Source of the DNA: Mycobacterium senriense | Lineage (GTDB): Bacteria > Actinomycetota > Actinomycetes > Mycobacteriales > Mycobacteriaceae | Length of the DNA: 64,000 nucleotides | Reading direction: 5' to 3' | Assembly: GCF_019668465.1 (NCBI RefSeq) | Contig: NZ_AP024828.1 | Coordinates: 1,612,001 to 1,676,000 of the forward strand | Part shown: positions 34,510 through 60,751 of the stretch, piece after piece | How positions within the stretch are numbered: the first letter of the stretch is position 1 | Layout of the letters: each line of letters starts with the position of its first letter | Translations under genes and position numbers: made by a program | The notes under the pieces: model-generated | The model's input: the letters and a program-made list of their open reading frames with translations, nothing else | The model's database searches: none | What the model was told of the DNA's origin: nothing

Positions 34510-34983
34510 CGTTGCGCTGCGGCCACGCGGGCACACTCCGGTGACAGCAATCGCGGACGTGCCCCCCGGCGAACTATTTCTGGGGTGTATTCCGCCAGGG
34601 CGCTTTACCGGCCCGTAACGCTGGGAAAACACGGCCGAAAGCCAACACGCCCGGCACAGTAACCTGGCCCGACACGCCGTAGAGATTCTTGTCCACACGA
34701 ATTCCATGCCGTTGTATGGCCGGTATCTGCACTGATGTCCTAGCCCTTTGCATTAATCCACAGGTTCTCCACACCCCGCTCAACACAGGTGTCGACGGAT
34801 ATGCACACACGATGCACAGGTTCATAAACAGCGCCCCCTTTGCGTACTAGCCAGCAACGTTTAACGTCGTCCCGGCGCCGGGCGTGCGGGTGCTCTGGGC
34901 GCAGGTTGTCAGCACCTTGACTTACGCTCGAGGTCGACTTCGAATGTATGTTCGGATGCGTGAATCAGGGGAGGAGGGAATCC
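34510..34983. other. Intergenic region upstream of dnaB
   Basis: About 470 bp. No frame on either strand looks like a gene. The part 34700-34860 is A/T-richer with short direct elements around TCCACA (34757-34775) that recall, but do not match, DnaA boxes. The dnaB promoter should lie near 34900, and GGAGGG precedes the GTG 34984. Confidence 0.45.
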
Positions 34984-36360
34984 GTGGCGGTCGTCGATGA
35001 CTTGGCGTCGGGCATGGATTCCTCGCCGCCAAGCGAGGACTTCGGCCGGCAGCCACCGCAGGACATGGCGGCCGAGCAGGCGGTGCTGGGCGGCATGCTG
35101 CTGAGCAAGGACGCCATCGCCGATGTGCTGGAACGGCTGCGGCCTGGCGACTTCTACCGCCCCGCCCACCAGAACGTCTACGACGCGATCCTCGATCTCT
35201 ACGGGCGCGGCGAGCCGGCCGACGCGGTGACGGTCGCCGCGGAGCTGGACCGCCGCAACCTGCTGCGGCGCATCGGCGGGGCACCGTATCTGCACACGCT
35301 GATCTCGACGGTGCCGACCGCGGCCAACGCGAGCTACTACGCGACCATCGTGGCCGAGAAGGCGCTCCTGCGGCGCCTCGTGGAGGCCGGCACCCGGGTC
35401 GTGCAGTACGGCTACGCGGGCGCCGAGGGTGCCGACGTGGCCGAGGTGGTCGACCGCGCGCAGGCTGAGATCTACGAGGTGGCCGAGCGCCGGACGTCGG
35501 AGGATTTCGTTCCGCTCGAGGATCTGCTGCAGCCGACGATGGACGAGATCGACGCCATCGCGTCCAACGGTGGCGTCGCGCGCGGCGTGCCGACGGGTTT
35601 CACCGAACTCGACGAGGTGACCAACGGCCTACACGCCGGGCAGATGATCATCGTCGCGGCCAGGCCTGGGGTGGGCAAGTCGACACTGGGGCTAGATTTT
35701 TTGCGGTCGTGCTCCATCAAGCACCGCATGGCCAGCGTCATTTTCTCGCTGGAGATGAGCAAGTCCGAAATCGTGATGCGGCTGCTGTCGGCGGAAGCGA
35801 AGATCAAGCTCGCCGACATGCGGTCCGGTCGCATGAGCGACGAAGACTGGACGCGGCTGGCCCGGCGGATGAGCGAGATCAGCGAGGCGCCCCTGTATAT
35901 CGACGACTCGCCGAACCTGACGATGATGGAGATCCGCGCCAAGGCTCGCCGGTTGCGGCAGAAGTCCGACCTGCGACTGGTCGTGGTCGACTATCTACAG
36001 CTGATGTCGTCGGGCAAGAAGGTCGAGTCGCGGCAGCTCGAAGTATCCGAATTCTCGCGTCACCTCAAGCTTTTGGCCAAGGAGCTCGAAGTCCCCGTCG
36101 TCGCGATCAGCCAGCTCAACCGTGGTCCCGAGCAGCGCACCGACAAGAAGCCGATGCTGTCGGACCTTCGTGAGTCGGGATCGCTCGAGCAGGACGCCGA
36201 CATGGTGATCCTGCTGAACCGGCCGGACGCGTTCGAGCGCGACGACCCACGCGGGGGAGAGGCGGATTTTATTCTCGCCAAACACCGCAACGGCCCCACC
36301 AAGACGGTGACGGTTGCGCACCAGCTGCACCTGTCGCGGTTCACCAACATGGCGCGGTGA
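34984..36360 (+). CDS. dnaB: Replicative DNA helicase DnaB, intein-free
   Basis: 458 aa. N-terminal helical domain (to about 170: PQDMAAEQAVLGGMLLSKDAI), linker, and RecA-like ATPase with Walker A ARPGVGKST (Lys 232), Walker B LVVVDYLQLM, and the DnaB motifs SLEMSKSEIVMRLLSAEA and SDLRESGSLEQDADMVILLNR. GTG 34984 is chosen for its GGAGGG site; the frame opens at 34948 without one. Many mycobacterial DnaB proteins contain inteins at the P-loop or the RESG site; both sites are uninterrupted here. The Tn7-like module begins directly after the stop codon. Confidence 0.96.
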   Translation: MAVVDDLASGMDSSPPSEDFGRQPPQDMAAEQAVLGGMLLSKDAIADVLERLRPGDFYRPAHQNVYDAILDLYGRGEPADAVTVAAELDRRNLLRRIGGAPYLHTLISTVPTAANASYYATIVAEKALLRRLVEAGTRVVQYGYAGAEGADVAEVVDRAQAEIYEVAERRTSEDFVPLEDLLQPTMDEIDAIASNGGVARGVPTGFTELDEVTNGLHAGQMIIVAARPGVGKSTLGLDFLRSCSIKHRMASVIFSLEMSKSEIVMRLLSAEAKIKLADMRSGRMSDEDWTRLARRMSEISEAPLYIDDSPNLTMMEIRAKARRLRQKSDLRLVVVDYLQLMSSGKKVESRQLEVSEFSRHLKLLAKELEVPVVAISQLNRGPEQRTDKKPMLSDLRESGSLEQDADMVILLNRPDAFERDDPRGGEADFILAKHRNGPTKTVTVAHQLHLSRFTNMAR

Positions 36361-36510
36361 GGCTGCTGCCGAGATGCAATGAAGATTGACAAGCGCGCAT
36401 TGATTGTTAAACAACAGCGTCAGTCGATCTGAGTGTCTGGCAGCATAAGTGCAGGTCAAGCCGCTAACTGCCGACTCGGCCCCAAGATCTTGTCAAAGTA
36501 GCTGCTCGAA
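36361..36510. other. Spacer between dnaB and tniQ1, probable left end of the element
   Basis: 150 bp, clearly A/T-richer than dnaB. It contains a near-palindrome TTGTTAAACAA (36402-36412) and an 8-bp inverted pair, TTGACAAG at 36386-36393 and CTTGTCAA at 36489-36496. Tn7-like elements have repeated transposase sites at their ends; these motifs are candidates only. Confidence 0.35.
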
Positions 36511-38238
36511 ATGAGAGTCGCGCGCCGCTGGCTTCCGCTTCAGGTGCAACCACTTAAGGGTGAATCGATCGATTCGTGGCTGGAGGCCAGTGCACGTGCA
36601 ATGGGGGGCACCGTCGGAACCCTTGCGGCAGCCGCAAAGCTTCCGGCTACCGCGAAGCCGCCTTGGTTGACCTGCCTGCCGCCGGCGCAGGCGCAGTTGC
36701 TCGCGGCGGCCACCGGTGTACCGGCGGAGTCGTTCGAAGCGATGACGCTGAGCAAGTACGACGGGACCGCCTTGCATATTGATGCGGACACGGAGCGCCT
36801 CAATCCAAAATTCCCCTTCGGAGCTCTGCCAAGGTCCCGGTTCTGCCCTGCATGCCTACGCGAAACGGGCGGTCGGTGGCAATTGCGCTGGCGCCTCGGT
36901 TGGTCCTTCGCGTGCCTGGAACACAATTGCATCCTCGTCGACCAATGTCCCGGCTGCGGAAGCTATCAGCGATCGACCCAGTACTACCGCCGCATCGAGC
37001 CTCCAGCCACCTGCCGTTGCGGCCTCCCACTGGGAACGGTTCCAGCATTGCGGTGGACCGATAGACACGACTTTTCGTGGGCGCAGGAGGCGGTCAATGA
37101 GGTTATTGACGACGGCTACTATGATTTCGGAATTTTCGACGCGTACCCACGACTTTTGGAGGAGGTCCTGGGGGCTGTCCGAAGCCTTGCCAACAGGATC
37201 TTGAACTATTCGTCGACCCACAGCCTGACGATTCAGGGCATTGAGGATGACCTGACGGGCGAGCATACGGTAGGTTTCACGTCCTCACAGGCGCGAGAAA
37301 CACTGAATAACAAAGCGCCGCTTCGTGCTCTGGATGTTGCCGTCGGTACCACATTGGCCTTGAAGGTGTTGCGGCACGCAAGCGTGGCCGACTGTGGGAT
37401 GGCCGCACGATGGTTCATTGCAGGGCAGAACGCCACCAGCGGCCCAGCGGAAATCCGCTCATGCGTTCGAGATAGCGACATCGCCGCTGCCATCGTCTTG
37501 AAGGCGCGTAACGCCGATCTGGGTCCTGAACTCCAGCTGCGATACCGCACTGCAACGACGCTGCCGTGCGCACCGATCCCCGGTCAGAAGCGAATCCAGA
37601 AGAAGGCTGCCCGGCTGCCGGCGGCAATCTGGACGCGATGGGCGTCTGTGTTGCTATCCGGCCGTCGCAAGACTTTGGTACTCCGCGAGACATTGTCGTG
37701 CGCCACACTGCTCGTGGGTGCAACCATCAGGCCCGTTGCGGCAGTGGGCCTCCTGGGCGTCGTCGAGAGTCACAGCATTTTGAATAACAGGCTGTGGGTT
37801 TTGTGCGACTCAAACTACTGGGAGTCGATGCAGCAGGCGCTCGTCCGGTTAAGTGACTTCCTAGAGCAGGGCAGTGGCCGGATCAACTACGAGCGCCGCC
37901 GCCAGCTCGATTACTCCCTGTTGGTCAGCGATGACTTCTGGCAGCAACAGATGGAAGGCGATGCTGGCTCGCTGCCGACGGGGAGCTCGGTTGTGGCCGC
38001 GCATTGTTATTTGATTGAAAGGATAAGTGGTTCCCCGCGTCTCGCCCTTCAGTTCCACCCCGAGTTGGACTACTGGAGTTTGACGAAGCTCGTGACCGCT
38101 TTCACGGCGCACCTGACCGAGCCGGCGGTGGCGGCGCTGGATCAGCGTGCACGGAGCTTCCTTGCGGAGCAGGGAGTCAGTGAACCGGTGTACTGGCACC
38201 CGCCTCTCAAACTTCTTGACGGACTTAACTTCTCATAG
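36511..38238 (+). CDS. tniQ: TniQ/TnsD-type target-selection protein 1
   Basis: 575 aa. The N-terminal TniQ domain begins with LPLQVQPLKGESIDSWLEASARA, and zinc-finger Cys pairs follow: CPAC at residues 112-115, then CLEHNCILVDQCPGCG at about 137-152 and CRC near 170. The long C-terminal part (200-575) is specific to TnsD-like members that bind a chromosomal attachment site; it ends with EPVYWHPPLKLLDG, a block I recall from other actinobacterial TniQ proteins. TniQ links target DNA to the TnsC ATPase. GC is lower than in dnaB. The ATG has only a weak ribosome-binding site. Lying next to dnaB, it is the best candidate for the protein that chose this site. Confidence 0.85.
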   Translation: MRVARRWLPLQVQPLKGESIDSWLEASARAMGGTVGTLAAAAKLPATAKPPWLTCLPPAQAQLLAAATGVPAESFEAMTLSKYDGTALHIDADTERLNPKFPFGALPRSRFCPACLRETGGRWQLRWRLGWSFACLEHNCILVDQCPGCGSYQRSTQYYRRIEPPATCRCGLPLGTVPALRWTDRHDFSWAQEAVNEVIDDGYYDFGIFDAYPRLLEEVLGAVRSLANRILNYSSTHSLTIQGIEDDLTGEHTVGFTSSQARETLNNKAPLRALDVAVGTTLALKVLRHASVADCGMAARWFIAGQNATSGPAEIRSCVRDSDIAAAIVLKARNADLGPELQLRYRTATTLPCAPIPGQKRIQKKAARLPAAIWTRWASVLLSGRRKTLVLRETLSCATLLVGATIRPVAAVGLLGVVESHSILNNRLWVLCDSNYWESMQQALVRLSDFLEQGSGRINYERRRQLDYSLLVSDDFWQQQMEGDAGSLPTGSSVVAAHCYLIERISGSPRLALQFHPELDYWSLTKLVTAFTAHLTEPAVAALDQRARSFLAEQGVSEPVYWHPPLKLLDGLNFS

Positions 38239-38257
38239 GTGGCACACAAAACCGTGA

Positions 38258-38279
38258 GTGCACAGCAAATGCTGTGCAC
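38258..38279. promoter_or_regulatory. Perfect 22-bp palindrome between tniQ1 and tnsA
   Basis: Arms GTGCACAGCA and TGCTGTGCAC of 10 bp with an AA centre, in the 144-bp spacer between tniQ1 and tnsA. It has the form of an operator for a dimeric repressor, or an RNA hairpin that would limit read-through into tnsABC. Confidence 0.6.
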
Positions 38280-38382
38280 GAGTGAAAATGCACGTAAAAG
38301 TTTCGAAAATCGACCCAGTAGCTACCTCCAAGATGCATATCGTGGCGCACCTGACCCTACGTCGAAGGTGGAGGTAAATCCG

Positions 38383-39151
38383 ATGAGTCGCAACAATGCA
38401 CGGCAAAATGGCCAAGGCGCAGCAGACGGCGTTGTGCAGCTTGAGTGGACACTGCGTTTCCGCGACGGTGTGGAAACCGTATGGCTATGGCAAGTCCAAG
38501 GTGCTCCACCACTGGACCTGCTGGCTCCGATCCGGACCCCTCGGTCTTCGGCGAGTAATCGCCATATCCCAGTGTCGGCTTACACATTTACCAATTCTGG
38601 TGTCGTACATCTGGAATCGGGGCTTGAGCACGACCTGGTTCGCATGCTAGACCGTGACTCCACCGTCTTGCGGATAATTTTCCCAACCGTTCCGGTTGTC
38701 ATGGCATACCGAAGAACCGGTTACCCACTTCCCCGACCTATTGACTCAGCACATCGATGGGAGCGTCACCGTATGGGATGCCCGACCACAAGAAAAGCAG
38801 GACGACGACTTTCAGGCCAAGAGCGTCGTGACCCGTCGCGCCTGCCAGCGGGTTGGATGGCGCTACACGGTGTTCGCCGGAACAACCGTAACGGAACGAA
38901 TGAACATGTTGTGGCTGCACGGATTTCGCCGCAGACCTCCATGGGCAACGCATTTCGAGGAACAGATACAGCAGCTGGCTGAATGTGGCGACACGACAGT
39001 GGGCTCGCTTCTTTCGGCAGATGACGGGACAGGCGAACTCAAAACGGTGGTCTGGCACATGATGTGGACGGGCGCATTGGACATCGACATGACCGTGCCG
39101 TGGACGCTGCACACACCCGTTGTAGCGAGCAAGGAGCAGAGCCATGTCTAG
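38383..39151 (+). pseudogene. tnsA: TnsA-like transposase endonuclease subunit, +1 frameshift
   Basis: ATG 38383 follows AAGGTGGAGGT. The first frame runs through HLESGLEHDLVRMLDRDS and then loses similarity; the second frame carries HFPDLL, VTVWDARP and CQRVGWRYTVFAG to the stop at 39151. Removing one T from the TTTT run at 38678-38681 joins them through IISQPFRLSWH, exactly the SQPF block of this family, and gives 255 aa. TnsA cuts the 5' ends of the element in Tn7. Catalytic candidates in the restored protein are Glu 78 or 82, Asp 118 and, at the place of the TnsA Lys, Arg 134. The alternatives are a true mutation, a sequence error or programmed frameshifting. The stop overlaps the tnsB start. 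Confidence 0.8.
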
Positions 39152-41282
39152 TGGCCGTACCAACCTGGTCGAAGGAACACGCGTACTGACTAATCGAGGG
39201 TTCGCGGTCATCGACAAAGTCGAAGCAGCCAGCGTCATCTTGCAGTATGCCTACGGCGATACAACGAAAACCGGTTATGCGAACATTGATTCAATCCGCA
39301 TCCTTGAGAACGGCGAAGCGTCAGCACTCTGCGAACCGCTTCGCCCACGGTGGGACGCCGTCAGCGACGAAGCCCGCGAGGCGGCGCTTTTCAAGTTGGG
39401 AATTGTTCAAGAGATCTTGACCGGTTACCGAGACGGCCACCCCGCTCTGGCACGTCCTGGTGAGCCGAGACCGCCGTTCGGTCCGAGTGGGGCTTCGGAG
39501 AGCCAGCGCTGCAGTGCGATGGCCATGGAATTGAATCTCGGGGCGCAACTCGATCGCAAACCGCCCCGTCGGATTCAGGACGAGGATTGCAGCACAGCGC
39601 ATTACAGCCCGGTCACGATCAGAAGCTGGGTACGCGGGTTCAAAGAGCGTGGCCTGCTCGCGCTGATCGATGCACGAAGTACTCGCCAGAGCAAGTCCTG
39701 GGAGTTGATCGACGAGCGATACCGTCAGGTGGCCACCCAGATAGTGGACACCTTGGACGGGGACCGATCGACTATCTCTAATCAGGAGATCGATCGCCGA
39801 ACCAGAGTTCGACTGAAGGAAAACGGGATTAAGGACTTCCAGGCGCCGCAGCGAATCACCGGCCAGTTCCTGGCTGCCCTCAAACGGGAGCGAGGAGCAA
39901 CGACGCGTGCACAAAAGAGCCGGAAGCACCGCAAGGTTTCAGGCGCAAAACACTACCCGGCGATTCGCCCGGGCCAGGTGGTCGCCATCGACGTCACCCG
40001 CGCCGACAATCTCGTTTACGACACACTGACTGGCCGCGCATGCAGCGTGGAGATCATCACCGCCATCGATGTCGCGACCCGCGTGGTTCTCGCGCTACGC
40101 GTCGTTCCCAGAAGCGCCAATGGTATCGAGGCAGGGCTGCTGCTCTACGACATCTGCCGCCCTTTCTCATTGCTGGTCGAGGGTACGTCCATCAGTCAGT
40201 GGAGGTGGGCGGGCCTACCTGGGCAGCTCGATCTCCGCGGCGTGGCCGTACGGGTCGGCAAGCGCCTGCTGGCACCGGACTTCAGCACTCTGCAGGGCGA
40301 GCACGGCATCCCGTCCGTGTTACCGGATGCCATCCGCTGCGACCACGGATCAATCTTCGTCTCTCAACATTTCCGGGCGCTGCTGGCGACCCTGGGAATC
40401 GACCTGATGCTAAATCGCGGCGGCAAGGCCAACGACAACCCACATGTGGAACGTTGGCACGAAACCATTCAGCGTGGGTTGCAGCAGATCCCGGGATACA
40501 AGGGCCGCAACACCTCTGAGCGCGGCAGACTGGTTAGCGAGGAGCCCCTGTTGACCGCATCGCAGCTGCGGGATCACTTACGTCGTTTCGTCGCACTCGA
40601 TTACCACCGCAGCGCGCATGAGGGCCTGATCCTGCCCGGTGAAGAGGAGGCAAGGATGTGCCCGCTCGAGATGTGGGATGCGATGACTGAACTCACTGGG
40701 AGAATCGATGTGCCGCAACAATCGGATCTGATCTACCAGTTCCTCCCGGTTCGATGGGGGACCATCAGCCACGCCGGTGTGGAGTTCAAGAACCTGGTGT
40801 ACGACTCGCTGAGAGTCTTTGAGCCCTATCGTTCGGTGCCAGTCGGGCAGTTCCGACCTGAAGACCGCGCGGCACCCTTCTTCTACGATCCGCAAGATCT
40901 CTCGCGGATCTGGTTTCGCGATCCCGCGACGAAGCGAGTCGAACCCATTGAATGGCGCGGCTCGGATCGCAGCGTCGCGCCCATGACCGCGGCGATCGTC
41001 GATGCCGCGTGTCGACGGATACGCCACCGAGGCGGCAACCTGGTCTTGAATGGCGATTCCGCCACGCGCCAGATCCTCGACGAACTCACCCAGATCACCG
41101 AGGCACCTGCAAAACCGAAACTGCGCAAAAAGCTCATCGCCGCCCGGTTGCGGGTGGAGCAGGCCAAGGCCGATCACGCCGAGGCGCAGCAGCATCAAGA
41201 CCAGGTGCCGCCCTCGCGGTCACGCCCACGGCGGCCATCGCCGGCGCACGACGTGTGGCCCGAGCTTCCGGAAGGTGCCTAA
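39144..41282 (+). CDS. tnsB: TnsB-like DDE transposase (Mu/TniA type)
   Basis: 712 aa. N-terminal DNA-binding region (1-260) with helix-turn-helix-like segments (STAHYSPVTIRSWVRGFKERG, TISNQEIDRRTRVRLKENG). The integrase core has Asp 283 (VAIDVTRAD), Asp 400 (IRCDHGSIFVS) and Glu 436 (NPHVERWHETI), with 35 residues between the last two, a DD(35)E triad. The C-terminal Mu-type beta barrel and a Lys/Arg/Pro-rich tail that would contact TnsC follow. It carries out 3'-end cleavage and strand transfer. ATG 39144 has AAGGAG upstream and overlaps the tnsA stop by 8 bp. All key residues are present. Confidence 0.92.
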   Translation: MSSGRTNLVEGTRVLTNRGFAVIDKVEAASVILQYAYGDTTKTGYANIDSIRILENGEASALCEPLRPRWDAVSDEAREAALFKLGIVQEILTGYRDGHPALARPGEPRPPFGPSGASESQRCSAMAMELNLGAQLDRKPPRRIQDEDCSTAHYSPVTIRSWVRGFKERGLLALIDARSTRQSKSWELIDERYRQVATQIVDTLDGDRSTISNQEIDRRTRVRLKENGIKDFQAPQRITGQFLAALKRERGATTRAQKSRKHRKVSGAKHYPAIRPGQVVAIDVTRADNLVYDTLTGRACSVEIITAIDVATRVVLALRVVPRSANGIEAGLLLYDICRPFSLLVEGTSISQWRWAGLPGQLDLRGVAVRVGKRLLAPDFSTLQGEHGIPSVLPDAIRCDHGSIFVSQHFRALLATLGIDLMLNRGGKANDNPHVERWHETIQRGLQQIPGYKGRNTSERGRLVSEEPLLTASQLRDHLRRFVALDYHRSAHEGLILPGEEEARMCPLEMWDAMTELTGRIDVPQQSDLIYQFLPVRWGTISHAGVEFKNLVYDSLRVFEPYRSVPVGQFRPEDRAAPFFYDPQDLSRIWFRDPATKRVEPIEWRGSDRSVAPMTAAIVDAACRRIRHRGGNLVLNGDSATRQILDELTQITEAPAKPKLRKKLIAARLRVEQAKADHAEAQQHQDQVPPSRSRPRRPSPAHDVWPELPEGA

Positions 41283-41285
41283 ACC

Positions 41286-42314
41286 ATGGATGCGCAGCTA
41301 TGGCACGACTACTGCACGATGCAGCCACCAGCAGAGCCCCAACCGGTCACCGTCCGGCAGTGGAAGGTAATGACACGTCAGCAACGGGCAGCCCATATCG
41401 ACCATTTGACCGAATGGCTGCAGAGCCTGTTTCTGCCCACTGGCGATGTGGTGGCGATCTACGACAGTGCCGACAACATTGTTCGAATCAATAAGTTGAC
41501 TCCACCGGGTGCGAAGAGCCTGCCCGCGCTCTCAGGACCGAACTACGCCGGCAAGAGCACGATGATGATGCGCTGGGCGCGCGAGAAGTACCTAGCGTGG
41601 ATTGCTGACGCTGAATTGGACCCCTATGGCCGACCGATCATCCGCCCAAAACCGGGGTGGGAAGTCGATCTGGATCCCGTTGTGTGGATTGACCTTGACG
41701 CCGCTGCCCAGATCAAAGACGTCGACGCAGCAATCCTGGGGTTCTTCAACCTGTCGGCCGAGGGAGCAAAACGCGACATATCGATGGCGGCGATGGACGC
41801 GGTTCGAAGACACCGAACACAGATCGTCATTATCGATGACGTTCACCTGCTCAAGACGAACTGGAAATCGGGACGCGACGTGCTCGACCATATCAAGCAC
41901 CTCAATACACGTCTTGGTCAGATCGGCGTCACACTTGTTCTCATCGGTGCCGATCTCGAAGCCCGAGACCTAGTGCATGACTCACAAATCGCGGCCCGTC
42001 TCCGGCTGAATCGGTTCGGGCCGTACGAGATCGACGATCTCGACGCCGATCGGATCGGTTGGCAAGTGATCGTGCGTGATTTCGAGAAGCTGCTGCTGCC
42101 TCATCTGCCGCGAAGTCGGCCGAACGAGCTGCACACCAAGCTTGCGGCCGAGCTCTATCACCGCACGCAGGGCTACCTCGGAGACCTCAAAGCGCTGCTC
42201 TGCGAGGCGACGATCGGGGCAATCACTGATGGCACCCACAGGATCCTGCTCCGGCATCTCAACGTCGTGATGTTGAGCAAACGTGCAGAGGAACAACGTC
42301 TGGTACCCAGCTGA
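41286..42314 (+). CDS. tnsC: TnsC/TniB-like AAA+ ATPase
   Basis: 342 aa. Walker A is GPNYAGKST with Lys 90, Walker B is IVIIDDVHLL with Asp 184-Asp 185, and sensor region TLVLIGADLEARDLV follows; RLNRFGPYEIDDLD resembles the arginine-finger/lid segment of TniB. It polymerises on DNA, receives the target from TniQ and activates the TnsB transposase. It starts 3 bp after the tnsB stop, so tnsA-B-C are one operon. The frame appears intact. Confidence 0.9.
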   Translation: MDAQLWHDYCTMQPPAEPQPVTVRQWKVMTRQQRAAHIDHLTEWLQSLFLPTGDVVAIYDSADNIVRINKLTPPGAKSLPALSGPNYAGKSTMMMRWAREKYLAWIADAELDPYGRPIIRPKPGWEVDLDPVVWIDLDAAAQIKDVDAAILGFFNLSAEGAKRDISMAAMDAVRRHRTQIVIIDDVHLLKTNWKSGRDVLDHIKHLNTRLGQIGVTLVLIGADLEARDLVHDSQIAARLRLNRFGPYEIDDLDADRIGWQVIVRDFEKLLLPHLPRSRPNELHTKLAAELYHRTQGYLGDLKALLCEATIGAITDGTHRILLRHLNVVMLSKRAEEQRLVPS

Positions 42315-42470
42315 AAAGCTGGGCAACGCCAGCACGAAAGTCACGGCGATGGTCCAGTGACCGCTGCCCCGATCGCACCTCCTCGTCAACCACGACTGGA
42401 GTAGTGCACATGGCGGTGGCTCACCGGGGCCCAGGCGCGGAGGCGCGGGAGCCGCGAGGACGTTAACCAG

Positions 42471-44162
42471 CTATTCCACGGAATGATGTGGCGACGACTG
42501 GTCGAGCACAAGCGAGCGCAGCGCCGCGCGCGCCGGCTCCGGAAGGCGATCGCGGAACACGCGGTAGGTCGCCTTGATCCGCGGGGTAGGCGGCGCTGGC
42601 CAGGCAGGGCTGACATCGAGTAAGCCTTGAGCCACCTCGCACCACATCCAGGTGATCGCGTAGGGCGACGAAGTGGGCCGCCGATGCGGTGTCGTCGTCG
42701 TCCGCCAAGTTTCGAACCAACCGCCGGGGTCTCGGGTCAGTGCGCGGACCCGAGCCTCATGCTCGCGGAAATTGCGACTGCACGAGAGCATGTCCATCGC
42801 GGTGTTGACGGCGTCGGCGAATACCTTTGGAGTGACCCGCAATCGGGCGCTGGATGCGCGGGCGGCGCGGGCACCGATCGCGGGAGCCAGACCGATTCTT
42901 ACTGCGGCATCCGACCAATTGGCCACGTCTGCCACGAGTCTGACCATGCACAGTGACACATACAATCTGCCCGTCCATTCGTATCCACCGAGCATCTCGT
43001 CAAAACATGCGTGGTAGATGTCGGTGTCGATCAGTTGTGGAATGGCCGAGCCTTGAAGCAATTCACTGCGACGAACCTTCTGAAGGCGTCGCCCGACGTG
43101 GTGACGCTGCCTAGCTGCGGTATTGATGAGCCGCTCCATCGTCGGTGTGCGTGTCGTGCGATTCACTAACCACGCGCATGGGCCGTTTTTCGCCTCGGCG
43201 ATCAGACCCAGCCAGGGGCACAGGCGGGTAGCGGCGCCTTCAATGTGTATCTGCTGAAGGATGTCGGCAGCATCGGTGAGAACGTGCCCTCGGACCACCG
43301 CACTCTTGGGTGGGCTGATTCCCCAGCGTGGCCCGCGAAGGTTTGTTGTGCGCTCACGGGCTTCGGCGTGGAGAACCTCGGCCCAGTTCCTTACCTGCGG
43401 TCCGTCTGGCCGCGACAGCAGGTGAAGCAACAAGGTTGCGACATGCCGTATCTCAGCGAGGAAGAGTCGAGGGTCAACGCGCCTGCCTAGCATCGGCACG
43501 GTCTCGCCGGCCAGCGCTTCGGCCAAGATTGTTGCGGTGCTGAGCACCTGTGGTGGAGCTGACTCTGGAACGTGTCTAAGCACCGATTGCCTGCATGGAT
43601 TGCGTAGGCCGACAGGGTTCGCGCATAACTGTTGCGGGCCGGCCAGGGGGCGCAACGGCGAATAGCGGTGAGTGCGGAATCGATGACCGCAACCACTGCA
43701 GTGCGTCGTCAGGAAGACCCCGTGGCGAGGACACGTCGCGGCAAGAGGCAGTCGCCATTCCACCGCCCAGATGCCGTCCTCGACCAAGCACAGCGGGCAC
43801 GCCTGCGAGCCGCACTGGGGAAACCAGCCCTGGGTCACCACGTGCCGGAAGGTGTGCCGACGAAGAGGATCCAGCCCGTCGAGATACAGCGGCAACCCGT
43901 CGTCGAACCGCAGGAGGGTGGCATGGGCAACGGAAGCCTCATCGACGCCACTCAACCTGGCGATCCTGCTGATGATCAAAGGATCCGGTTTGATCATCAT
44001 GAAAGCCGCACTGGGGGAGCCGAAATGCTCAGCCACGGTAAGAAGCCGCAGCAGCTGAGGTGGTGACAAGCCGTTGGCGATAGCGAGCCGTTCCAGGAAG
44101 CTGTCAAGGGATTCCCGCTCGTCCAAGGCTGGTCGACTCGGCAGCAGGCCTCGTGTAACCAC
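42471..44162 (-). CDS. tniQ: TniQ/TnsD-type target-selection protein 2
   Basis: 563 aa on the opposite strand, convergent with tnsC (156-bp gap). The N-terminus LLPSRPALDERESLDSFLER is the TniQ start; the zinc finger has CPLC (Cys 122, 125), then TCPRHGVFLTTHCSGCGH (about 141-158). The rest has no motif I know but is long, as in site-specific TnsD rather than short TniQ. GTG 44162 has GGCGGAG 6-7 nt upstream. Two large TniQ proteins in one module suggest two target pathways, as Tn7 has with TnsD and TnsE. It may instead belong to the right part of the element with its own promoter; a CTACTAGTAG palindrome lies 150 bp upstream. Confidence 0.82.
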   Translation of the reverse strand: MVTRGLLPSRPALDERESLDSFLERLAIANGLSPPQLLRLLTVAEHFGSPSAAFMMIKPDPLIISRIARLSGVDEASVAHATLLRFDDGLPLYLDGLDPLRRHTFRHVVTQGWFPQCGSQACPLCLVEDGIWAVEWRLPLAATCPRHGVFLTTHCSGCGHRFRTHRYSPLRPLAGPQQLCANPVGLRNPCRQSVLRHVPESAPPQVLSTATILAEALAGETVPMLGRRVDPRLFLAEIRHVATLLLHLLSRPDGPQVRNWAEVLHAEARERTTNLRGPRWGISPPKSAVVRGHVLTDAADILQQIHIEGAATRLCPWLGLIAEAKNGPCAWLVNRTTRTPTMERLINTAARQRHHVGRRLQKVRRSELLQGSAIPQLIDTDIYHACFDEMLGGYEWTGRLYVSLCMVRLVADVANWSDAAVRIGLAPAIGARAARASSARLRVTPKVFADAVNTAMDMLSCSRNFREHEARVRALTRDPGGWFETWRTTTTPHRRPTSSPYAITWMWCEVAQGLLDVSPAWPAPPTPRIKATYRVFRDRLPEPARAALRSLVLDQSSPHHSVE

Positions 44163-46905: not shown

Positions 46906-48369
46906 TTGACGACAGACTCGGTGGGTGCGATGCTGTTCGACTGCCCTTTTTCCGACATGATGAATGAGGCGATGAACCGAACTGAGGACGAACTGAGCGA
47001 CCTGACCGCGGAGCCTGCGGGCGGCGCGGAGGCGCATCGGCGACCTATTACCGACGTCGGCACGTGGCTGGAGAGCGTCGACGGTGGTGTGCGGCCCGCG
47101 CTGCGCGCCCTGGGCGAGCTGCTGGTCGGTGTCGCTGAGCACAGTGGCGCCGAGAAACCGGTGAACGCCGATCAGTTCACCGCCCGCTGTCTGGGAGTGG
47201 CGGGCTGCGGGCAACTGGTTGACGAGGAACGCGGCCTTAACCCGTTGTCGTGGTTCACCGTCGCGCTGGCGCTGGCCGAGTGGATCGATAAGTATGCGCG
47301 GGTTTGTCAGGTCGGTCCCGGTGAGTACGCCGACCCGCCGAGGTGGACGCAGACCCGGATCGGCGGTCAGGACTACCGCCACCCGCTATGTTTGCGGGTG
47401 TATTTTCCCGCAGGGACGCTGCTCGACGATGCCGGGTGTGTGATCGCCCTGCAGGGCCGGCAGAGCATGCTGCGGTCGGTCGGTGTGAGCGCCTACGTGG
47501 CGCCGGCCAACCAGGACCGCGCCCGCGTGCTTTTGGACGGGCTCGCTGAACGCGCCAACGAGCTCAATCCTTACCGGGGCCACGCGGTGCGCGCCACCCA
47601 CACCGCCGGACTGACATTGACCGTCATCGACTTGCCCTCGACCGCGACCCGAGAGAACGTCATTGTCGCCGACCAGGTGTGGACTGAAATCGATCTCGGC
47701 GTCCGCGCGGTGCGAGACCGCCACGACCTGCTCAACGCCCACAGCCTCGGTGCGCGCCGTGGTGTGCTGTTGTGCGGTCCGCCAGGCACCGGGAAATCGG
47801 CCGTGAGCGCCGTCGTGGCTTGCGAGGTCGTCGGGGAATTCACCGTTATCTACCTCGAGGCCAAAGCCGGTACCCAGCTGCTCAGCGCCGTCGTGGAGGA
47901 AGCGCAGCACCTCGGCGGCCCGGTGCTGCTCGTGCTCGAAGACATTGACCTGTGGTGCCGAGACCGCAGCACCGGCGGTGCCGGGTTGTCGGAATTGTTG
48001 CAGGCCATGGACATTCAGCCCGACGCCCGCATCCTGACGCTGGCGTCCACCAACGACGCCGCCACTTTGGACCAGGCGGCCATTCGCACCGGGCGGTTCG
48101 ACTCCATCGTCGAAGTCGGCTATCCGAACCCAACTGATTCCGCCCGGATTTTGGCGGCGCTGATCCGTGATCTGCCTGGCGGCCGCGCGGTCGACTGTGC
48201 GGGTGTGGTGGCGGCGCTTCCCGAGCGCACCAGCGGCAGCGACATCCGTGAGATCGTGCGCCGTGCCGTGCTGGCCGGTCATGACAGACGCGTTAGCACC
48301 GCAACGCTTTTGGCGGAGGTGGGCAGCGGGCGCTACCGCCCCACGATTCCTGAAGGGATGTACCTCTAG
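46906..48369 (+). CDS. AAA+ ATPase, Cdc48/FtsH-like core
   Basis: 487 aa with TTG 46906 as start (GGAAG upstream; GTG 46921 or ATG 46930 are alternatives). The N-terminal 280 residues are unique. Then Walker A GPPGTGKSA (Lys 297), Walker B LLVLEDIDLW (Asp 345 region), sensor 1 ILTLASTNDAATLD, Arg finger AIRTGRFDSIVEV and a sensor 2 helix SGSDIREIVRRAVLAGHD. It is a classic AAA protein that remodels or unfolds a partner, probably the product of the next gene, which follows in the same frame with only a TAG between. Mycobacterial islands often carry such pairs. All catalytic residues are present. Confidence 0.8.
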   Translation: MTTDSVGAMLFDCPFSDMMNEAMNRTEDELSDLTAEPAGGAEAHRRPITDVGTWLESVDGGVRPALRALGELLVGVAEHSGAEKPVNADQFTARCLGVAGCGQLVDEERGLNPLSWFTVALALAEWIDKYARVCQVGPGEYADPPRWTQTRIGGQDYRHPLCLRVYFPAGTLLDDAGCVIALQGRQSMLRSVGVSAYVAPANQDRARVLLDGLAERANELNPYRGHAVRATHTAGLTLTVIDLPSTATRENVIVADQVWTEIDLGVRAVRDRHDLLNAHSLGARRGVLLCGPPGTGKSAVSAVVACEVVGEFTVIYLEAKAGTQLLSAVVEEAQHLGGPVLLVLEDIDLWCRDRSTGGAGLSELLQAMDIQPDARILTLASTNDAATLDQAAIRTGRFDSIVEVGYPNPTDSARILAALIRDLPGGRAVDCAGVVAALPERTSGSDIREIVRRAVLAGHDRRVSTATLLAEVGSGRYRPTIPEGMYL

Positions 48370-49249: not shown

Positions 49250-49423
49250 GTGGAACGTCGGACACCTAAGAAGGTGGTCGTGTCAACGGCTGCCGTCAAG
49301 AAGGCGGGGATGCGCGCCACGAAGGCCTCGGCCAAGTTGGAAGGCAGGGTGGTTCCCGCTGGTTACAGCCGGTCGGCCAGCGTGAAGGCCTACATCGCGA
49401 AGCAGCAGTCACCTAAGCGCTGA
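49250..49423 (+). CDS. Fic antitoxin, small VbhA-like class I inhibitor
   Basis: 57 aa from GTG 49250, preceded by GAGGAGGT. It is Lys/Arg/Ala-rich and contains SAKLEG at residues 27-32, matching the Fic inhibitory motif (S/T)xxxE(G/N), in which the Glu blocks ATP binding in the toxin. Its TGA overlaps the toxin ATG (ATGA), the usual antitoxin-first order. The sequence otherwise differs from VbhA, so the class assignment rests on the motif, size and gene order. Confidence 0.7.
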   Translation: MERRTPKKVVVSTAAVKKAGMRATKASAKLEGRVVPAGYSRSASVKAYIAKQQSPKR

Positions 49424-50046
49424 TGCCGCTGACGCCGGGCTACGGTGAGACTCCACTTCCGCATGACGAACTCACTGCCCTGCTCCCGGAGGTCGTCGAG
49501 GTCCTGGACAAGCCGGTCACGCGCGCTGCCGTCTATGATCTCGAACAGGGTCTTCAGGATCGGCTGTTCGATGAACTGATGCCGTCGGCGCTCGACGGCT
49601 CGTTGCCGCTCAATGAGCTTCTCAGCGACTACTTCGTGCGCGGTCTCCATGCGCGACTGTTCGGCCCGGTATGGAACTGGGCCGGTCGGTGGCGGCGATT
49701 AGAGCTCAACATCGGCGTCGCGCCTGAGCAGATTGCCGTTAAGCTGCGAAACGCGCTCGACACTATTGCTTACCGGTGGGAACGAACCGAGGACTGGACG
49801 CCTCGGCAATTGGGTATCGTCGTGCATGCCGAAACCGTGCGAATCCATCCTTTCGTGGACGGAAATGGGCGCACCACAAGGTTTCTCGCTGACCTCGTGT
49901 TCGCGGCAGCTCAGAATCCCACCCAGTTGCAGTACGACTGGGACCTTGACAAGACGCGGTATATCGAGCTGCTTCGGGCCTACGACGGACACCGCGACGT
50001 GGCCGATCTAGCGGCTTTCATTGGTGTGGAGCCTATCGAGCCCTAA
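49423..50046 (+). CDS. fic: Fic/DOC family protein, probable AMP-transferase toxin
   Basis: 207 aa. The Fic motif HPFVDGNGR is complete, His 142 to Arg 150, so AMP transfer from ATP to a target hydroxyl is possible. The flap/target-docking segment LFGPVWNWAGRWRR lies near residue 80, as in Fic proteins. The N-terminal ETPLPHDELTALLPE and helix DLEQGLQD resemble the group annotated as mobile mystery protein B. Coupled to the upstream antitoxin. Known Fic toxins of this layout modify gyrase or topoisomerase IV; the target here is not visible. The frame is intact, unlike its neighbours. Confidence 0.88.
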   Translation: MPLTPGYGETPLPHDELTALLPEVVEVLDKPVTRAAVYDLEQGLQDRLFDELMPSALDGSLPLNELLSDYFVRGLHARLFGPVWNWAGRWRRLELNIGVAPEQIAVKLRNALDTIAYRWERTEDWTPRQLGIVVHAETVRIHPFVDGNGRTTRFLADLVFAAAQNPTQLQYDWDLDKTRYIELLRAYDGHRDVADLAAFIGVEPIEP

Positions 50047-51682: not shown

Positions 51683-51744
51683 CATGCGCACCGGCAGCGC
51701 TCGCCGCTGTCGACGTAGCCCCAGACGGTGAGCAGGCTGGACAT
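51670..51744 (-). pseudogene. Relic of the Cys-rich zinc-ribbon gene
   Basis: On the minus strand it encodes LLTVWGYVDSGERCRCAC and QQRLPES, parallel to ALTVWRYIDTGERCRCSC and HPRLPET of the gene at 45898-46750. About 60 bp of DNA is roughly three-quarters identical to 46497-46559. It is joined tail to tail to the truncated TnsA. Confidence 0.65.
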
Positions 51745-53262: not shown

Positions 53263-54105
53263 TTAGGACCCAGCCGAAGCGGTGTCCGGGGCGGCGAACA
53301 CTTTGCTGAGGTCGAGCTGGCCGGACTGCACGGCGCCGAAGAATCCGCCATCGGTCACCAGTGCTTCGCCGTTGATGTAGCTGGATCGGGGGCTGTTGAG
53401 GAAGATCAGCGGCCACGCCTGTTCCTCGGCGGTTGAGCGCCGCCGAATCGGGCCGACGAACGCATCGATGATGTTCTGCCCCGCGAATTCCACGAAGTGG
53501 GGCAGCATCGCGGTCTCCGTGGGGCCTGGGTTGATGCAGTTGAGCCGGATGCCATCGGTGATCAGCGTGGCGGCCCGGGAGCCAACCCAGGCGTTGATCG
53601 CCTTTTTCGAAAACGGGTATGCGCCAACGGCCCCCATCTCGTCATTGGCTTCGCACAACCGCTTGCCCTCGTCGAAGCCGTCTGTGGACACCAGTTCCAT
53701 CAGCTGTTCGAGCTCCAGTTGCCACCCCATTGCGGCATTGGATGCGACGACGGCGATCGCCCCGCCGGGCGGAATCTTGGGCAGGACCAGGTTCACTAGA
53801 TGCCGCGCCCCGACGAAGTTGACCAGTAGCACGTCGAGGCCGGAGAACGGCGGTCCAGGCAGGCCCGCGCAGCCGAAATAGGCATCCACCGGCCCCTCAA
53901 TGGCTTCGGCTCCCCGCTCGATGGATCCGCGATCGCGCAGGTCCACCTCGACCACCCGGTTGACGGGAAGGTCCGTGGGGCGCACGTCGAGCGCGGTGAC
54001 TCTCGCCCCCAGGTTGAGCAGAATTGAGGCGGTCGCAGCGCCCATGCCTGATGCGGCGCCGGTTACAACCACGTGGCGTCCCGCATATCCCAGTACGTCT
54101 TCCAT
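53263..54105 (-). CDS. SDR family oxidoreductase, hydroxysteroid dehydrogenase-like
   Basis: 280 aa. Cofactor loop TGAASGMGAAT at residue 16, acidic DVR after strand 2 (NAD preference), and the catalytic Tyr-Lys in YPFSKKAINAWV; NPGPTETAML is the substrate-side loop. The arrangement with GCAGLPGPPFSGLD and a large insert resembles 3-alpha-hydroxysteroid dehydrogenase-type SDRs. ATG 54105 has GGAGGA upstream. Divergent from the aldehyde dehydrogenase; a palindromic operator lies between them. Confidence 0.85.
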   Translation of the reverse strand: MEDVLGYAGRHVVVTGAASGMGAATASILLNLGARVTALDVRPTDLPVNRVVEVDLRDRGSIERGAEAIEGPVDAYFGCAGLPGPPFSGLDVLLVNFVGARHLVNLVLPKIPPGGAIAVVASNAAMGWQLELEQLMELVSTDGFDEGKRLCEANDEMGAVGAYPFSKKAINAWVGSRAATLITDGIRLNCINPGPTETAMLPHFVEFAGQNIIDAFVGPIRRRSTAEEQAWPLIFLNSPRSSYINGEALVTDGGFFGAVQSGQLDLSKVFAAPDTASAGS

Positions 54106-54149
54106 CGTTCCTCCGGCGTCTTTGAGAGTATCGTCTGTCCAAATAACGA

Positions 54150-54168
54150 TATAACAGGTGCTGTTATA
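54150..54168. promoter_or_regulatory. Perfect 19-bp palindromic operator in the SDR/ALDH divergent promoter
   Basis: TATAACAGGTGCTGTTATA: 8-bp arms and a GTG centre, 45 bp from the SDR start and 110 bp from the ALDH start. It is a typical TetR-family operator; the TetR gene at 56818 is the obvious candidate regulator. Confidence 0.65.
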
Positions 54169-54277
54169 GGAAGATAGCGTTCTCCTATTGGGGATAGGCT
54201 GCTAGCGTCCTGTGACATGGAGGCCTGCTCGGTGGTGCGACGGGCGTCAAATTTAGGCGAGTTGGAGGTAGTACGGG

Positions 54278-55807
54278 GTGGGTGACCGTTGGGATTACGA
54301 CGAGATGTTCATCGACGGCGCTTGGACGGCGGACGACACGGTGGGGGTCATCGAAGTCGTCGACCCGGCCACCGAGGAGGTCATCGGCTCGGCTCCCGAT
54401 GCGGGTCTTAAGGCCACCCACGCGGCGATCTTGGCTGCCCGGCGGGCGTTCGACGACGGGCCCTGGCCACGGACGTCGCCGCGAGATCGGGCCAAGGTCC
54501 TACGCAGATTCGCTGCCATCCTTGATGAGCGCCACGATTTCCTCAAGAAGCTGGTGATGACCGAGTCCGGGTCGGTTGGCTTCCTCGCCGACATCATCCA
54601 GGTGCGCGGAACGATTGACATCGCCGAGTGGATTGCGGAGGCCATGGAACTCGCGGTGCGCTGGACCGAAGTGTCGCCGCCGGCCGGGGGTCCAACTGGG
54701 ATGGCGGGACACGCGGTCGTCCGGGAGCCGGTTGGTGTGGTGGCCGCGATCACGCCGTTCAACTTTCCGTTCTTCCTCAACATCGTGAAGGTCCTGCCAG
54801 CTTTGGCGGCCGGCTGCACCGTGGTGCTCAAACCGCACCAGTGGACTCCCCTGGACGCCTTCGAAATCGCCAAAGCGGCCCAGGATGCCGACCTTCCGCC
54901 GGGCGTGTTCAACGTCATCGCGGGTGGCCCCGAGGCCGGCGCGGAGATGACCACCCACCCGCTGGTGGACATGGTCACTTTCACCGGCTCGACCGCCACC
55001 GGGCGGGCGATCATGGCGGCCGCAGCCCCTACGGTCAAGCGCCTGCAGCTCGAGCTCGGCGGCAAAAGTGCGTGCATTGTCTTGGACGACGTCCCCGAAG
55101 ACCATGTCGCCAACATGGGCATCATCAGCTCGATGATTCACGCCGGGCAGGGCTGTGCCATCCAGACCAGGATGCTGCTCCCCGAGCACCTGCTCGACGC
55201 GTACGTCGAGGGAGCCAGGAAGTCGGCGGCGTCGCTCAAGGTCGGCGATCCCCGGGAGCCTGACACGCTGATCGGTCCGTTGATCCGAGAACAGCAGCGA
55301 GCCCGAGTCGAGGCATACGTGCAGGCCGGTCTCGATGAGGGAGCCGAGCTGGTCTTCGGCGGCAAGCGGCCCGCGCACCTGGCCAAGGGGTTCTTCTACG
55401 AGCCGACGCTTTTCATCAACGCCCGCAACGACATGCGGATTGCGCAGGAGGAGATTTTCGGCCCGGTCCTCACCGCAATCACCTACAAGACCGAAGACGA
55501 AGCAATTCGCATCGCCAACGATTCGATTTACGGACTCGGTGGCGGCGTCATCGCCGGTAATACCGCGCGCGGCTTCAACGTCGCCCGTCGGATCCGGGCC
55601 GGAAACGTCTCGGTGCAGACAGTGGGGTCGCCCACCGTCAACGCCGAGGCCCTCGGAAGCTCGGGTCCAGGCTGGTCGGCCGATCAGCCGGGCGGGGTGG
55701 GCATTACCGGTGTCTTCGGCGGGTTCAAGCAGAGTGGCATTGGCAGGGAGTGGGGTCACCACGGAATCGAGGAGTTCACCGAACTCAAATCCATTGCCTG
55801 GAGTTGA
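54278..55807 (+). CDS. NAD(P)-dependent aldehyde dehydrogenase
   Basis: 509 aa, full length. Glu 259 in LELGGKSACIV and catalytic Cys 293 in GQGCAIQT; the Rossmann region VTFTGSTATGRAIM and the NFPF motif (ITPFNFPFFLNI) are in place; the C-terminal GVFGGFKQSGIGREWG is typical. Oxidises an aldehyde to an acid, which would then be CoA-activated. GTG 54278 has GGAGGT upstream. Divergent from the SDR gene. Confidence 0.93.
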   Translation: MGDRWDYDEMFIDGAWTADDTVGVIEVVDPATEEVIGSAPDAGLKATHAAILAARRAFDDGPWPRTSPRDRAKVLRRFAAILDERHDFLKKLVMTESGSVGFLADIIQVRGTIDIAEWIAEAMELAVRWTEVSPPAGGPTGMAGHAVVREPVGVVAAITPFNFPFFLNIVKVLPALAAGCTVVLKPHQWTPLDAFEIAKAAQDADLPPGVFNVIAGGPEAGAEMTTHPLVDMVTFTGSTATGRAIMAAAAPTVKRLQLELGGKSACIVLDDVPEDHVANMGIISSMIHAGQGCAIQTRMLLPEHLLDAYVEGARKSAASLKVGDPREPDTLIGPLIREQQRARVEAYVQAGLDEGAELVFGGKRPAHLAKGFFYEPTLFINARNDMRIAQEEIFGPVLTAITYKTEDEAIRIANDSIYGLGGGVIAGNTARGFNVARRIRAGNVSVQTVGSPTVNAEALGSSGPGWSADQPGGVGITGVFGGFKQSGIGREWGHHGIEEFTELKSIAWS

Positions 55808-56039
55808 GTTGCGGTGACAATCACAAGCCGCTGGGCGCGGCTAGGTCTGAGCATGTTAATCTCACGAGGTGGCACCTAAGCGTTTCACACTGGTAGAACG
55901 TGATAGGCGTCATGCAAGAATTTGGTAGACATAATCCGAGCGCACAGGGGCGACAAATGAAGGCGCAATTGGAGTCATCGGTCTTCGAACGGAGCTCTTG
56001 TCTGCCGGTGGCCGAGAACCATGTTGTTCCGGGGCGTGG

Positions 56040-56834
56040 ATGACTGAGGAAGCGGGCGCGCCTCGCGCCTTCACCTATCAACACGACGGGCTGACGTTGG
56101 CCTATACAGTGGTCGGCGACGGGCCTCAGCCGATCTTGTTCGTCCATGGTGCCACCGCAACGGGTGAATTCGAGTGGGCTGGCCTGGCCAGCGCCCTAGG
56201 ACCCGGCTACCGCTGCATCCTGCCCGACCTGCGCGGCCACGGCCGGTCGGAATTCCGGCCGACGGCCACGACGGGGACCGCCGTCCGCTCCGACCTGAGC
56301 TATCTCATTGACCGCCTGGACCTGGGGCGCCCGCACGTCGTGGGTTTCTCGTATGGCGCGGAGATCGCCCTGACCTTAGAGCTGGACAAACCGGGAACGG
56401 CCCGATCTCTAATCCTCATCTCCCCTGGTACCGGACGTCCCAGCGACTACCGAGCTCCGCGGCTGGAGCATCTGCACCGGACGTGGCCCTTCGCGCTACG
56501 ACGCCTGCATGAAGCCGCCCATGGTCCCGAGCACTGGCGCGACCTGGTCACAGCGATGCACGAGGACAGTGTGTCCTGGCCCGAATTGTCCGATGACACG
56601 TTGGCTGGCATCGCGTGCCCGATTCTTTTGATGGCAGGCGAGCGGGACGAACTCACACGTCAGCAGCAGGGTCGACGGTTCGCACAAGTCAATCCCCGGG
56701 CCCGATTTGTAGAGATCGCGGGCGCGGCGCATTCGGCCCATCAGAAGTGCCCAGATACCGTCAGGGGAGTCATCGGTGACTTCCTGGCCGAAGTCGACCT
56801 TGAGAGAGCGGAGCGTCATGGCGCGGTCAACTGA
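56040..56834 (+). CDS. Alpha/beta hydrolase
   Basis: 264 aa from ATG 56040. Oxyanion motif LFVHGATATGEFEW, Ser 104 in GFSYG, Asp 203 in GERDEL and His 231 in AAHSAHQ form a complete triad. It may be an esterase or a C-C hydrolase in the pathway; sequence alone does not decide. The gene before it is 230 bp away; the TetR start overlaps its end by 17 bp, so the two are translated together. Confidence 0.85.
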   Translation: MTEEAGAPRAFTYQHDGLTLAYTVVGDGPQPILFVHGATATGEFEWAGLASALGPGYRCILPDLRGHGRSEFRPTATTGTAVRSDLSYLIDRLDLGRPHVVGFSYGAEIALTLELDKPGTARSLILISPGTGRPSDYRAPRLEHLHRTWPFALRRLHEAAHGPEHWRDLVTAMHEDSVSWPELSDDTLAGIACPILLMAGERDELTRQQQGRRFAQVNPRARFVEIAGAAHSAHQKCPDTVRGVIGDFLAEVDLERAERHGAVN

Positions 56835-57513: not shown

Positions 57514-57516
57514 TCC

Positions 57517-58740: not shown

Positions 58741-58800
58741 TTTGTCTCCTTTGCAGTTTCAGTTTTCGGCCCGGACTGAGCCATTCGCGTCGGTGGCGGG

Positions 58801-59562: not shown

Positions 59563-59612
59563 CAAGCTCCTCATGCTGGCCAGCTACGGCCCTATCGAAA
59601 TCCGCGGACCAC

Positions 59613-59631
59613 GGTGCATCATCGATGCACC
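59613..59631. promoter_or_regulatory. Palindrome 1 in SDR/aldolase divergent promoter
   Basis: GGTGCATC and GATGCACC arms of 8 bp around an ATC centre, 51 bp before the SDR start. Confidence 0.5.
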
Positions 59632-59665
59632 TGTTCCTTGCACCTGACGCACATATCGTTCTACC

Positions 59666-59681
59666 ATGACGCGTACGTCAT
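59666..59681. promoter_or_regulatory. Palindrome 2 in SDR/aldolase divergent promoter
   Basis: ATGACG and CGTCAT arms around CGTA, 56 bp upstream of the aldolase GTG. Form and position fit a TetR- or GntR-type operator. Confidence 0.5.
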
Positions 59682-59737
59682 AGTCATCACCTGGCCCGAG
59701 AAACTCGCGTCCGGCAATAGTGCAGAAGGAGTCGGTT

Positions 59738-60736: not shown

Positions 60737-60751
60737 GAACGGAGGATTTTA

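Follow-up and report, generated by a model that had tools for sequence, protein, structure and literature searches.

A predicted 255-kb Tn7-like transposon with two large TniQ genes at the 3' end of dnaB in Mycobacterium senriense

The window analyzed here, a stretch of 64,000 nucleotides from Mycobacterium senriense, contains dnaB, the gene of the replicative helicase, followed directly by a transposition module of the Tn7 type. From position 36367 on, the window very probably constitutes the left part of a single Tn7-like transposon of 255,389 bp that begins 6 bp past the dnaB stop codon, as judged from sequence comparison. An initial annotation of the same DNA had described the module at positions 36361..44162, which represent only the left edge of this much longer element.

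The Transposition Module and Its Attachment Gene

The following features define the left part of the element (window coordinates):

34948..36360, + strand: dnaB, replicative helicase, 470 aa, intact; the putative chromosomal attachment gene
36362..36366: 5-bp target-site duplication GCTGC, left copy; its right counterpart comes after G000:C1:1903755, beyond the window
36367..36510: transposon end on the dnaB side (left end), carrying TnsB-site-like repeats at element positions 18 and 124
36511..38238, + strand: tniQ1, 575 aa, TnsD-sized (PF06527, 5.9e-20)
38239..38982, + strand: N-terminal piece of tnsA (NF033179, profile positions 9-64, 1.4e-5)
38696..39151, + strand, other frame: C-terminal piece of tnsA (NF033179, profile positions 72-209, 1.5e-23)
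39144..41282, + strand: tnsB, DDE transposase, 712 aa (D283, D400, E436; matches to TnsB chains in the PDB)
41286..42314, + strand: tnsC, AAA+ ATPase, 342 aa (PF05621, TniB, 2.8e-9; PF13401, AAA_22, 7.9e-8)
42471..44162, - strand: tniQ2, 563 aa (PF06527, 6.4e-21), convergent with tnsABC and in a clade of its own in the TniQ tree

A profile search of the open reading frames (ORFs) of the window identified two PF06527 TniQ proteins, both above the curated cut-off. TnsB exhibits the catalytic triad D283/D400/E436, with 35 residues separating D400 from E436, and its four PDB matches at E <=0.01 are all TnsB chains. In TnsC, a Walker A motif (GPNYAGKS) and a Walker B motif (IVIIDD) are present, and TnsC chains were the sole PDB matches at E <=0.01 (E 0.0034). 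The initial annotation had named tniQ1, a tnsB with a DD(35)E triad, a tnsC with Walker A and B motifs and a convergent tniQ of 563 aa, all of which are borne out by profiles, residues and PDB matches; a failure of one of the two large proteins to match the TniQ profile, which it had listed as speaking against its claim, did not occur. Its placement of the DNA in a mycobacterium agrees with a DnaB that shares 99% identity with its M. colombiense counterpart. The proposed tnsA-like gene stood only in part: both halves match NF033179 (TnsA-like), each under the cut-off of the model, but the window copy has no single open frame. The tnsA pieces of M. colombiense, M. triplex and M. ahvazicum share a single frame, as deduced from coordinate spacing. 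Consequently, intact tnsA copies exist and the window copy carries either a lesion or an assembly error. Nothing resembling an array of clustered regularly interspaced short palindromic repeats (CRISPR) was found among the 20 largest direct-repeat families of window positions 36200-64000. The module is predicted to be a Tn7-type core of a TnsA-like protein, TnsB, TnsC and two TniQ proteins.

DnaB was found in all 198 genomes of the genus that were compared. Twelve of them carry a close tnsB (>=58% identity), with 13 copies altogether. Nine of these 13 copies sit at dnaB. The first base of the element was placed at TGTCGAGATGCA by comparing M. triplex with M. ahvazicum, whose elements are alike and whose left flanks are different; in the window it corresponds to position 36367. 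The distance from the true dnaB stop codon to this left end is 6 bp in the window copy, 9 bp in M. colombiense, 10 bp in M. ahvazicum, 11 bp in G020, 8 bp in each of G013, G041 and G011, 7 bp in G052 and G030 and 5 bp in G154. The left end at G081:C32, 9 bp past the dnaB stop, was paired to the copy on G081:C26 by its matching 5-bp flank. In all 11 elements, the left end is therefore situated 5-11 bp 3' of the dnaB stop and the orientation is uniform. Copies away from dnaB were identified in M. triplex (genomes G164 and G199), G141 and G149; the G081:C45 copy, which has no matched pair of ends, falls in neither group.

End motifs 6-13 bp past dnaB are also present in six genomes without a close TnsB (G175, G006, G115, G075, G060 and G066), and other Tn7-like families, whose TnsB is about 30% identical, occupy dnaB as well. 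Together with the close-TnsB elements, these families indicate that dnaB is an attachment gene common to several of them. In two genomes without a close tnsB, paired end motifs lie beside dnaB, about 17.2 kb apart in one case (G092:C1:4950625-4967860) and about 3.4 kb apart in the other (G075:C1:3230019-3233378); these are possible non-autonomous elements. In many genomes of the genus, dnaB itself carries long inserts, presumably intein-like, that give frames of about 800-1,200 aa, while in others, including that of the window, the gene is uninterrupted. Tn7-like insertions adjoin both forms.

Element Ends and a Unit Shared by Two Species

In M. triplex, the inverted end motif terminates at C2:434652. 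A search with this right-end stretch found it in the genome of the window (G000, twice), M. colombiense, M. ahvazicum, G013 and at M. triplex C1:547938. The window element spans G000:C1:1648367-1903755, with its right end far outside the window; it is bounded by the paired inverted ends TGTCGAGATGCA...TGCATCTCGACA and flanked by GCTGC on both sides. Matching 5-bp flanks were also read in M. ahvazicum (GCACG), M. colombiense (GCGTC), G013 (TCCAA), G011 (ACAAG, 72,936 bp), G052 (GCCGC, 51,492 bp), G020 (GCGCC, 81,518 bp), G154 (ACATG), G030 (CCTAC), G081 (CCACC) and G141 (CGAGT). Identical flanks are thus present in 11 of the 13 copies for which both ends were read; this 13 includes G149, which is not among the 11, and leaves aside G041 and the Gordonia plasmid pGKT2 (one end read each) and G081:C45. 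The flank decided between candidate right ends in G000, G030, G081 and G141, each of which offered more than one. The G081 match is weakened by the position of its flank within a short GTG repeat. Should contigs C16 and C15 join, the G141 element would measure at least 291 kb. Across the genus, the end-motif search matched 47 of the 198 genomes, compared with 2 of 198 for the backward control. No match was obtained when plasmids were searched with the left end.

The size of the unit is addressed by M. triplex and M. ahvazicum. The M. triplex element, 247,175 bp in length, is located on a plasmid-type contig, and contigs C3 and C9 of M. ahvazicum cover 247,152 of these 247,175 bp at 99.89-99.97% identity. 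The M. ahvazicum copy sits at dnaB and exhibits a 5-bp duplication. The dnaB regions of the two species are only about 89-90% identical, and 4,851 bp from the left flank of the M. triplex copy found no match in M. ahvazicum. A near-identical block amid dissimilar dnaB regions and flanks indicates that it passed recently between the two lineages; an origin of the long identity in ordinary shared chromosome is ruled out by both ends and flanks. As read from these assemblies, one unit with exact ends lies at two unrelated places in two species, and this copy shared at two sites suggests that the element moves as a unit.

The M. triplex contig carries backbone genes for EccB, an EccC-like protein, EccA, an FtsK-like protein, an AAA_10 protein, which we take to be VirB4-like, and a ParB-domain protein. 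M. triplex has six eccB genes, one of them on the contig of the element but outside the element itself, compared with five in M. ahvazicum. No relaxase was found among 10 large ORFs scanned on this contig. Its last 9.8 kb and first 20 kb do not overlap, and it may therefore be linear or incomplete. These genes give it features of a conjugation-type mycobacterial plasmid, and the sequences compared support the use of both a chromosomal site, dnaB, and a plasmid.

The involvement of a plasmid-type contig would also fit a large block that moves by conjugal transfer and homologous recombination rather than by TnsABC transposition, and any movement between species needs some transfer route. This explanation is nevertheless very improbable. 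The boundaries of the block coincide exactly with the TGT/ACA ends, M. ahvazicum has a 5-bp duplication, and since the left flank of M. triplex is absent from M. ahvazicum, no substrate for homologous crossing-over is available there.

An ordinary Tn7-like element of about 16 kb (36367 to ~52692), next to an unrelated island and a coincidental distant right end, would account for the loss of close DNA similarity between G000 and M. colombiense from window position 52693 on, and for the DNA directly past this point, which differs among G000, M. colombiense and M. ahvazicum/M. triplex. We give this short element hardly any credence, as no end motif is present near 52692, the left end and the distant right end have the same 5-bp flank in each of G000, M. 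ahvazicum and M. colombiense, and a 247-kb unit common end to end to two sites contradicts it. An end near 52692, where the homology of relatives breaks, was dropped as a candidate because of the missing motif.

Several observations weigh against a single 255-kb transposon. The flanks of the M. triplex copy agree at only four of five positions (CTTCG/CTTCT), and the G149 end pair (57546, 120967) shares no flank (GCGGG/TCACC). Of the 11 matched copies, 7 have their ends on separate contigs. Inside the window element, a second right-end-like sequence (G000:C1:1876067-1876163, ~264,100 in window numbering) is located 27.6 kb before the matched right end and without a matching 5-bp flank; it could be a relic of an older end or part of a nested element. 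A clean empty site was not found in the 11 sequences of relatives that were compared. The right flank of G000 gave short matches in three of them (63 bp in G103, 259 bp in G132 and 92 bp in M. colombiense) and none in the other eight. The match of the dnaB region to the window ends at the dnaB end in 8 of the 11 relatives, with one further 77% match elsewhere in G132; the remaining three gave no dnaB-region match, and their stretches were taken from beside dnaB. Finally, the window copy has a left tip of TGC instead of the TGT of its relatives and a tnsA split over two frames. Unless both are assembly errors, this copy is probably immobile now.

The M. triplex genome G199 contains repeats of a class of ~200-320 bp, of which two, 95% alike, flank the 247-kb element at distances of 5.3 kb and 1.3 kb (C2:181970-182173 and ~435911-436115). 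Related repeats lie at C4:5969-6230 and C4:9116-9435. Their starts, and in the C2 pair also their ends, resemble transposon ends. The repeats could be tiny relatives of the element or a feature of the target.

Two TniQ Proteins and Target Choice

By analogy with Tn7 and CRISPR-associated transposons (CAST), TnsA and TnsB would excise the element as one unit, while TnsC would license the target by coupling the transposase to the target complex. A TniQ/TnsD-type protein would read the 3' end of dnaB, which would take the role of glmS, with insertion occurring just downstream and the gene being spared. The second TniQ might open another route, most simply onto conjugative plasmids, resulting in a two-route life like that of Tn7. 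The proposal of the initial annotation, two target pathways encoded by TniQ paralogues, is in agreement with the presence of two TniQ proteins and two kinds of site, dnaB and a plasmid-type contig. The corollary of one TniQ per route is more tentative: the same TniQ1 and TniQ2 are found in the plasmid copy and a dnaB copy, and the G020 element occupies dnaB without a TniQ1. A further reading, to which we attach moderate confidence, is a mycobacterial Tn7-like lineage that moves units of ~250-290 kb and with them entire lipid-catabolism superclusters, Mce genes included, between conjugative-type plasmids and the safe dnaB site, with two TnsD-sized TniQ proteins dividing the routes. The units in question measure 255 kb in the window, 247 kb in M. 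triplex and M. ahvazicum and at least 291 kb in G141 on the contig join mentioned above.

The two proteins differ in their distribution. A tniQ2 (>=48% identity) is present in the same 12 of 12 genomes that carry a close tnsB, which excludes the scenario, raised in the initial annotation, that it never accompanies tnsABC in homologous loci; in G013 and G030 it consists of pieces at contig ends and in G011 it contains an internal stop. TniQ1 is less conserved among these elements, with identities from 92% down to ~28%. A tree of 54 rows, from which matches with <350 aligned residues and proteins of <380 aa were left out, places TniQ2 in one clade (Shimodaira-Hasegawa-like approximate likelihood ratio test, SH-aLRT, 100; quick method, long branches) that comprises only copies from the close-TnsB family. 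In the same tree, the TniQ1 rows lie amid TniQ proteins that belong to other Tn7-like families of mycobacteria. When the TniQ1-type rows were labeled by site, the label dnaB required 13 changes; shuffling gave a mean of 16.0, and 32 of 500 shuffles were as low. The label "other" required 10 changes compared with a mean of 15.9, and 1 of 500 shuffles was as low. These values indicate clustering by site but do not assign the dnaB reader. In the G020 element, a TniQ of a third type, which matches weakly and has 515 aa (L102:10526-12073), adjoins TniQ2 in place of TniQ1, and the same replacement beside tniQ2 was observed in the pGKT2 record (100087-100410).

With the balance close to even, we lean towards TniQ1 as the dnaB reader and TniQ2 as the second-route factor, because TniQ1-type proteins occur in other Tn7-like families at dnaB. 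The reverse assignment, in which TniQ2 reads dnaB and TniQ1 or its substitutes take other targets, is possible, if rather doubtful. It gains from the retention of TniQ2, whole or partial, in all 12 genomes, including G020 with its third TniQ type at dnaB, and from G030, which is at dnaB with a TniQ1 of another branch. The confinement of the TniQ2 clade to the close-TnsB family argues against it, as does G141, whose TniQ2 is 56% identical to that of the window and whose element sits elsewhere. Joint action of both proteins at each target, one as adaptor and the other as DNA reader, would be an alternative to two routes. Both tniQ genes are kept in the copies of the window, M. colombiense, M. 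ahvazicum and M. triplex, and a TniQ with a separate selector is described for Tn6022 (PMC10293859). Both proteins are, however, TnsD-sized with long C-terminal parts of their own, unlike a short adaptor, and joint action appears unlikely.

Comparison With Known Systems and Cargo

Tn7 of E. coli (TnsABCDE, attTn7 downstream of glmS) resembles the element in its TnsA/TnsB/TnsC core, its selector of the TniQ/TnsD family, its TGT...ACA ends, its 5-bp duplication and its fixed orientation just 3' of an essential gene (described in part in PMC11406308). It differs in that the present element uses dnaB instead of glmS, encodes two TnsD-sized TniQ proteins and extends over 255 kb. No TnsE was seen in the element, over whose 255 kb no TnsE model was run. 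A "megatransposon" has reportedly been described in Thermoanaerobacter kivui (PMC12056078).

A total of 998 dual TniQ-TnsD loci, some with two tnsD genes, were reported (Faure et al., 2023; PMC10293859); according to that study, the second protein is as a rule much shorter than the first, and few of the pairs are distantly related. Two large TniQ genes accompanying tnsABC in one element are therefore a known arrangement; the present case differs in that both proteins are ~570 aa and belong to well separated clades. The main text of this study contains no word beginning with dnaB or mycobacter. Median lengths of Tn7-like elements were given as 14-29 kb with a maximum of 140 kb, based on searches of <=125 kb on either side of tnsB (Benler et al., 2021; PMC8649781). 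With tnsB near one end, the far end of an element as long as the present one would be out of reach of this limit. The same source describes a clade of Tn7-like elements dominated by Actinobacteria, none of whose members is reported to have been experimentally characterized (PMC8649781); the present element resembles this clade in its host group.

Outside the genus, plasmid pGKT2 of Gordonia sp. KTR9 (NC_018580.1) exhibits the same left end motif, TnsA-like and TniB-type genes, a TnsB of 58.6% and a TniQ2 of 47% identity. It differs in that an IS3-family gene interrupts the tnsB region and the third TniQ type takes the place of TniQ1. A 153-kb lipid-metabolism island with an MCE operon, found on M. 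avium pPPE_S58a and an M. paragordonae plasmid, is said to spread among plasmids of nontuberculous mycobacteria (NTM) "through translocation" (PMC12803027) and resembles the present element in its large lipid/Mce cargo. On the M. paragordonae plasmid NZ_CP025547.1, a decayed right-end-like array that lacks the terminal CATCTCGACA is situated beside the lipid block (~204043-204095). As a lead, the published island may have had such an element in its past. No intact end was present in four scanned stretches of this plasmid (100-180 and 279-306 kb lay outside the scan), and neither the window element nor that of M. triplex gave a DNA match to its 180-229 kb region.

Searches of the open-license literature gave no report of a Tn7-like element that is inserted at dnaB or reaches this size, nor any study of a Tn7-like element in mycobacteria; new here are the length of the element, its occurrence from end to end at two sites and dnaB as its attachment site. 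If the interpretation is correct, a single Tn7-type transposition can carry a quarter of a megabase, well beyond the 140-kb maximum of the survey (PMC8649781), and mycobacteria gain a concrete chromosomal attachment site at the 3' end of dnaB. It would further explain how large lipid-metabolism islands can spread between species and plasmids, and the near-identical insertions of M. triplex and M. ahvazicum would represent a natural pair for the two-target question.

The cargo within the window includes the following features:

46906..48369, + strand: AAA ATPase resembling IetA defense ATPases (PADLOC IetA, 1.5e-16; PF00004)
49423..50046, + strand: Fic-domain protein (TIGR02613, mobile mystery protein B, 4.1e-30, below the cut-off of the model; PF02661)
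53263..64000: start of a lipid/acyl-CoA catabolic block inside the bounded element, continuing past the window

Cargo ORFs were picked by a simple codon-position heuristic. Of 162 ORFs of >=240 aa that were contained entirely in a single stretch, three were left out by hand and 159 were scanned, in two sets of 112 and 47 ORFs; counts refer to the 25 commonest of 61 and the 25 commonest of 56 Pfam families, respectively. Among the most frequent families, the C-terminal domain of acyl-CoA dehydrogenases was found in 18 of 112 and 1 of 47 ORFs, short-chain dehydrogenases in 15 and 8, AMP-binding enzymes in 9 and 2 and P450s in 4 and 4, with six Mce/MlaD proteins and two MlaE permeases in the larger set. 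The predicted cargo is thus rich in lipid catabolism and includes Mce proteins. Pieces of >=80% identity to the M. triplex element cover ~59% of the G000 element, which indicates that the cargo turns over. Within the cargo, a 60-bp repeat, 85% alike, occurs at window positions 46502-46561 and 51673-51732, 5.2 kb apart, and copies and fragments of the neighboring orf222 recur in the M. triplex element.

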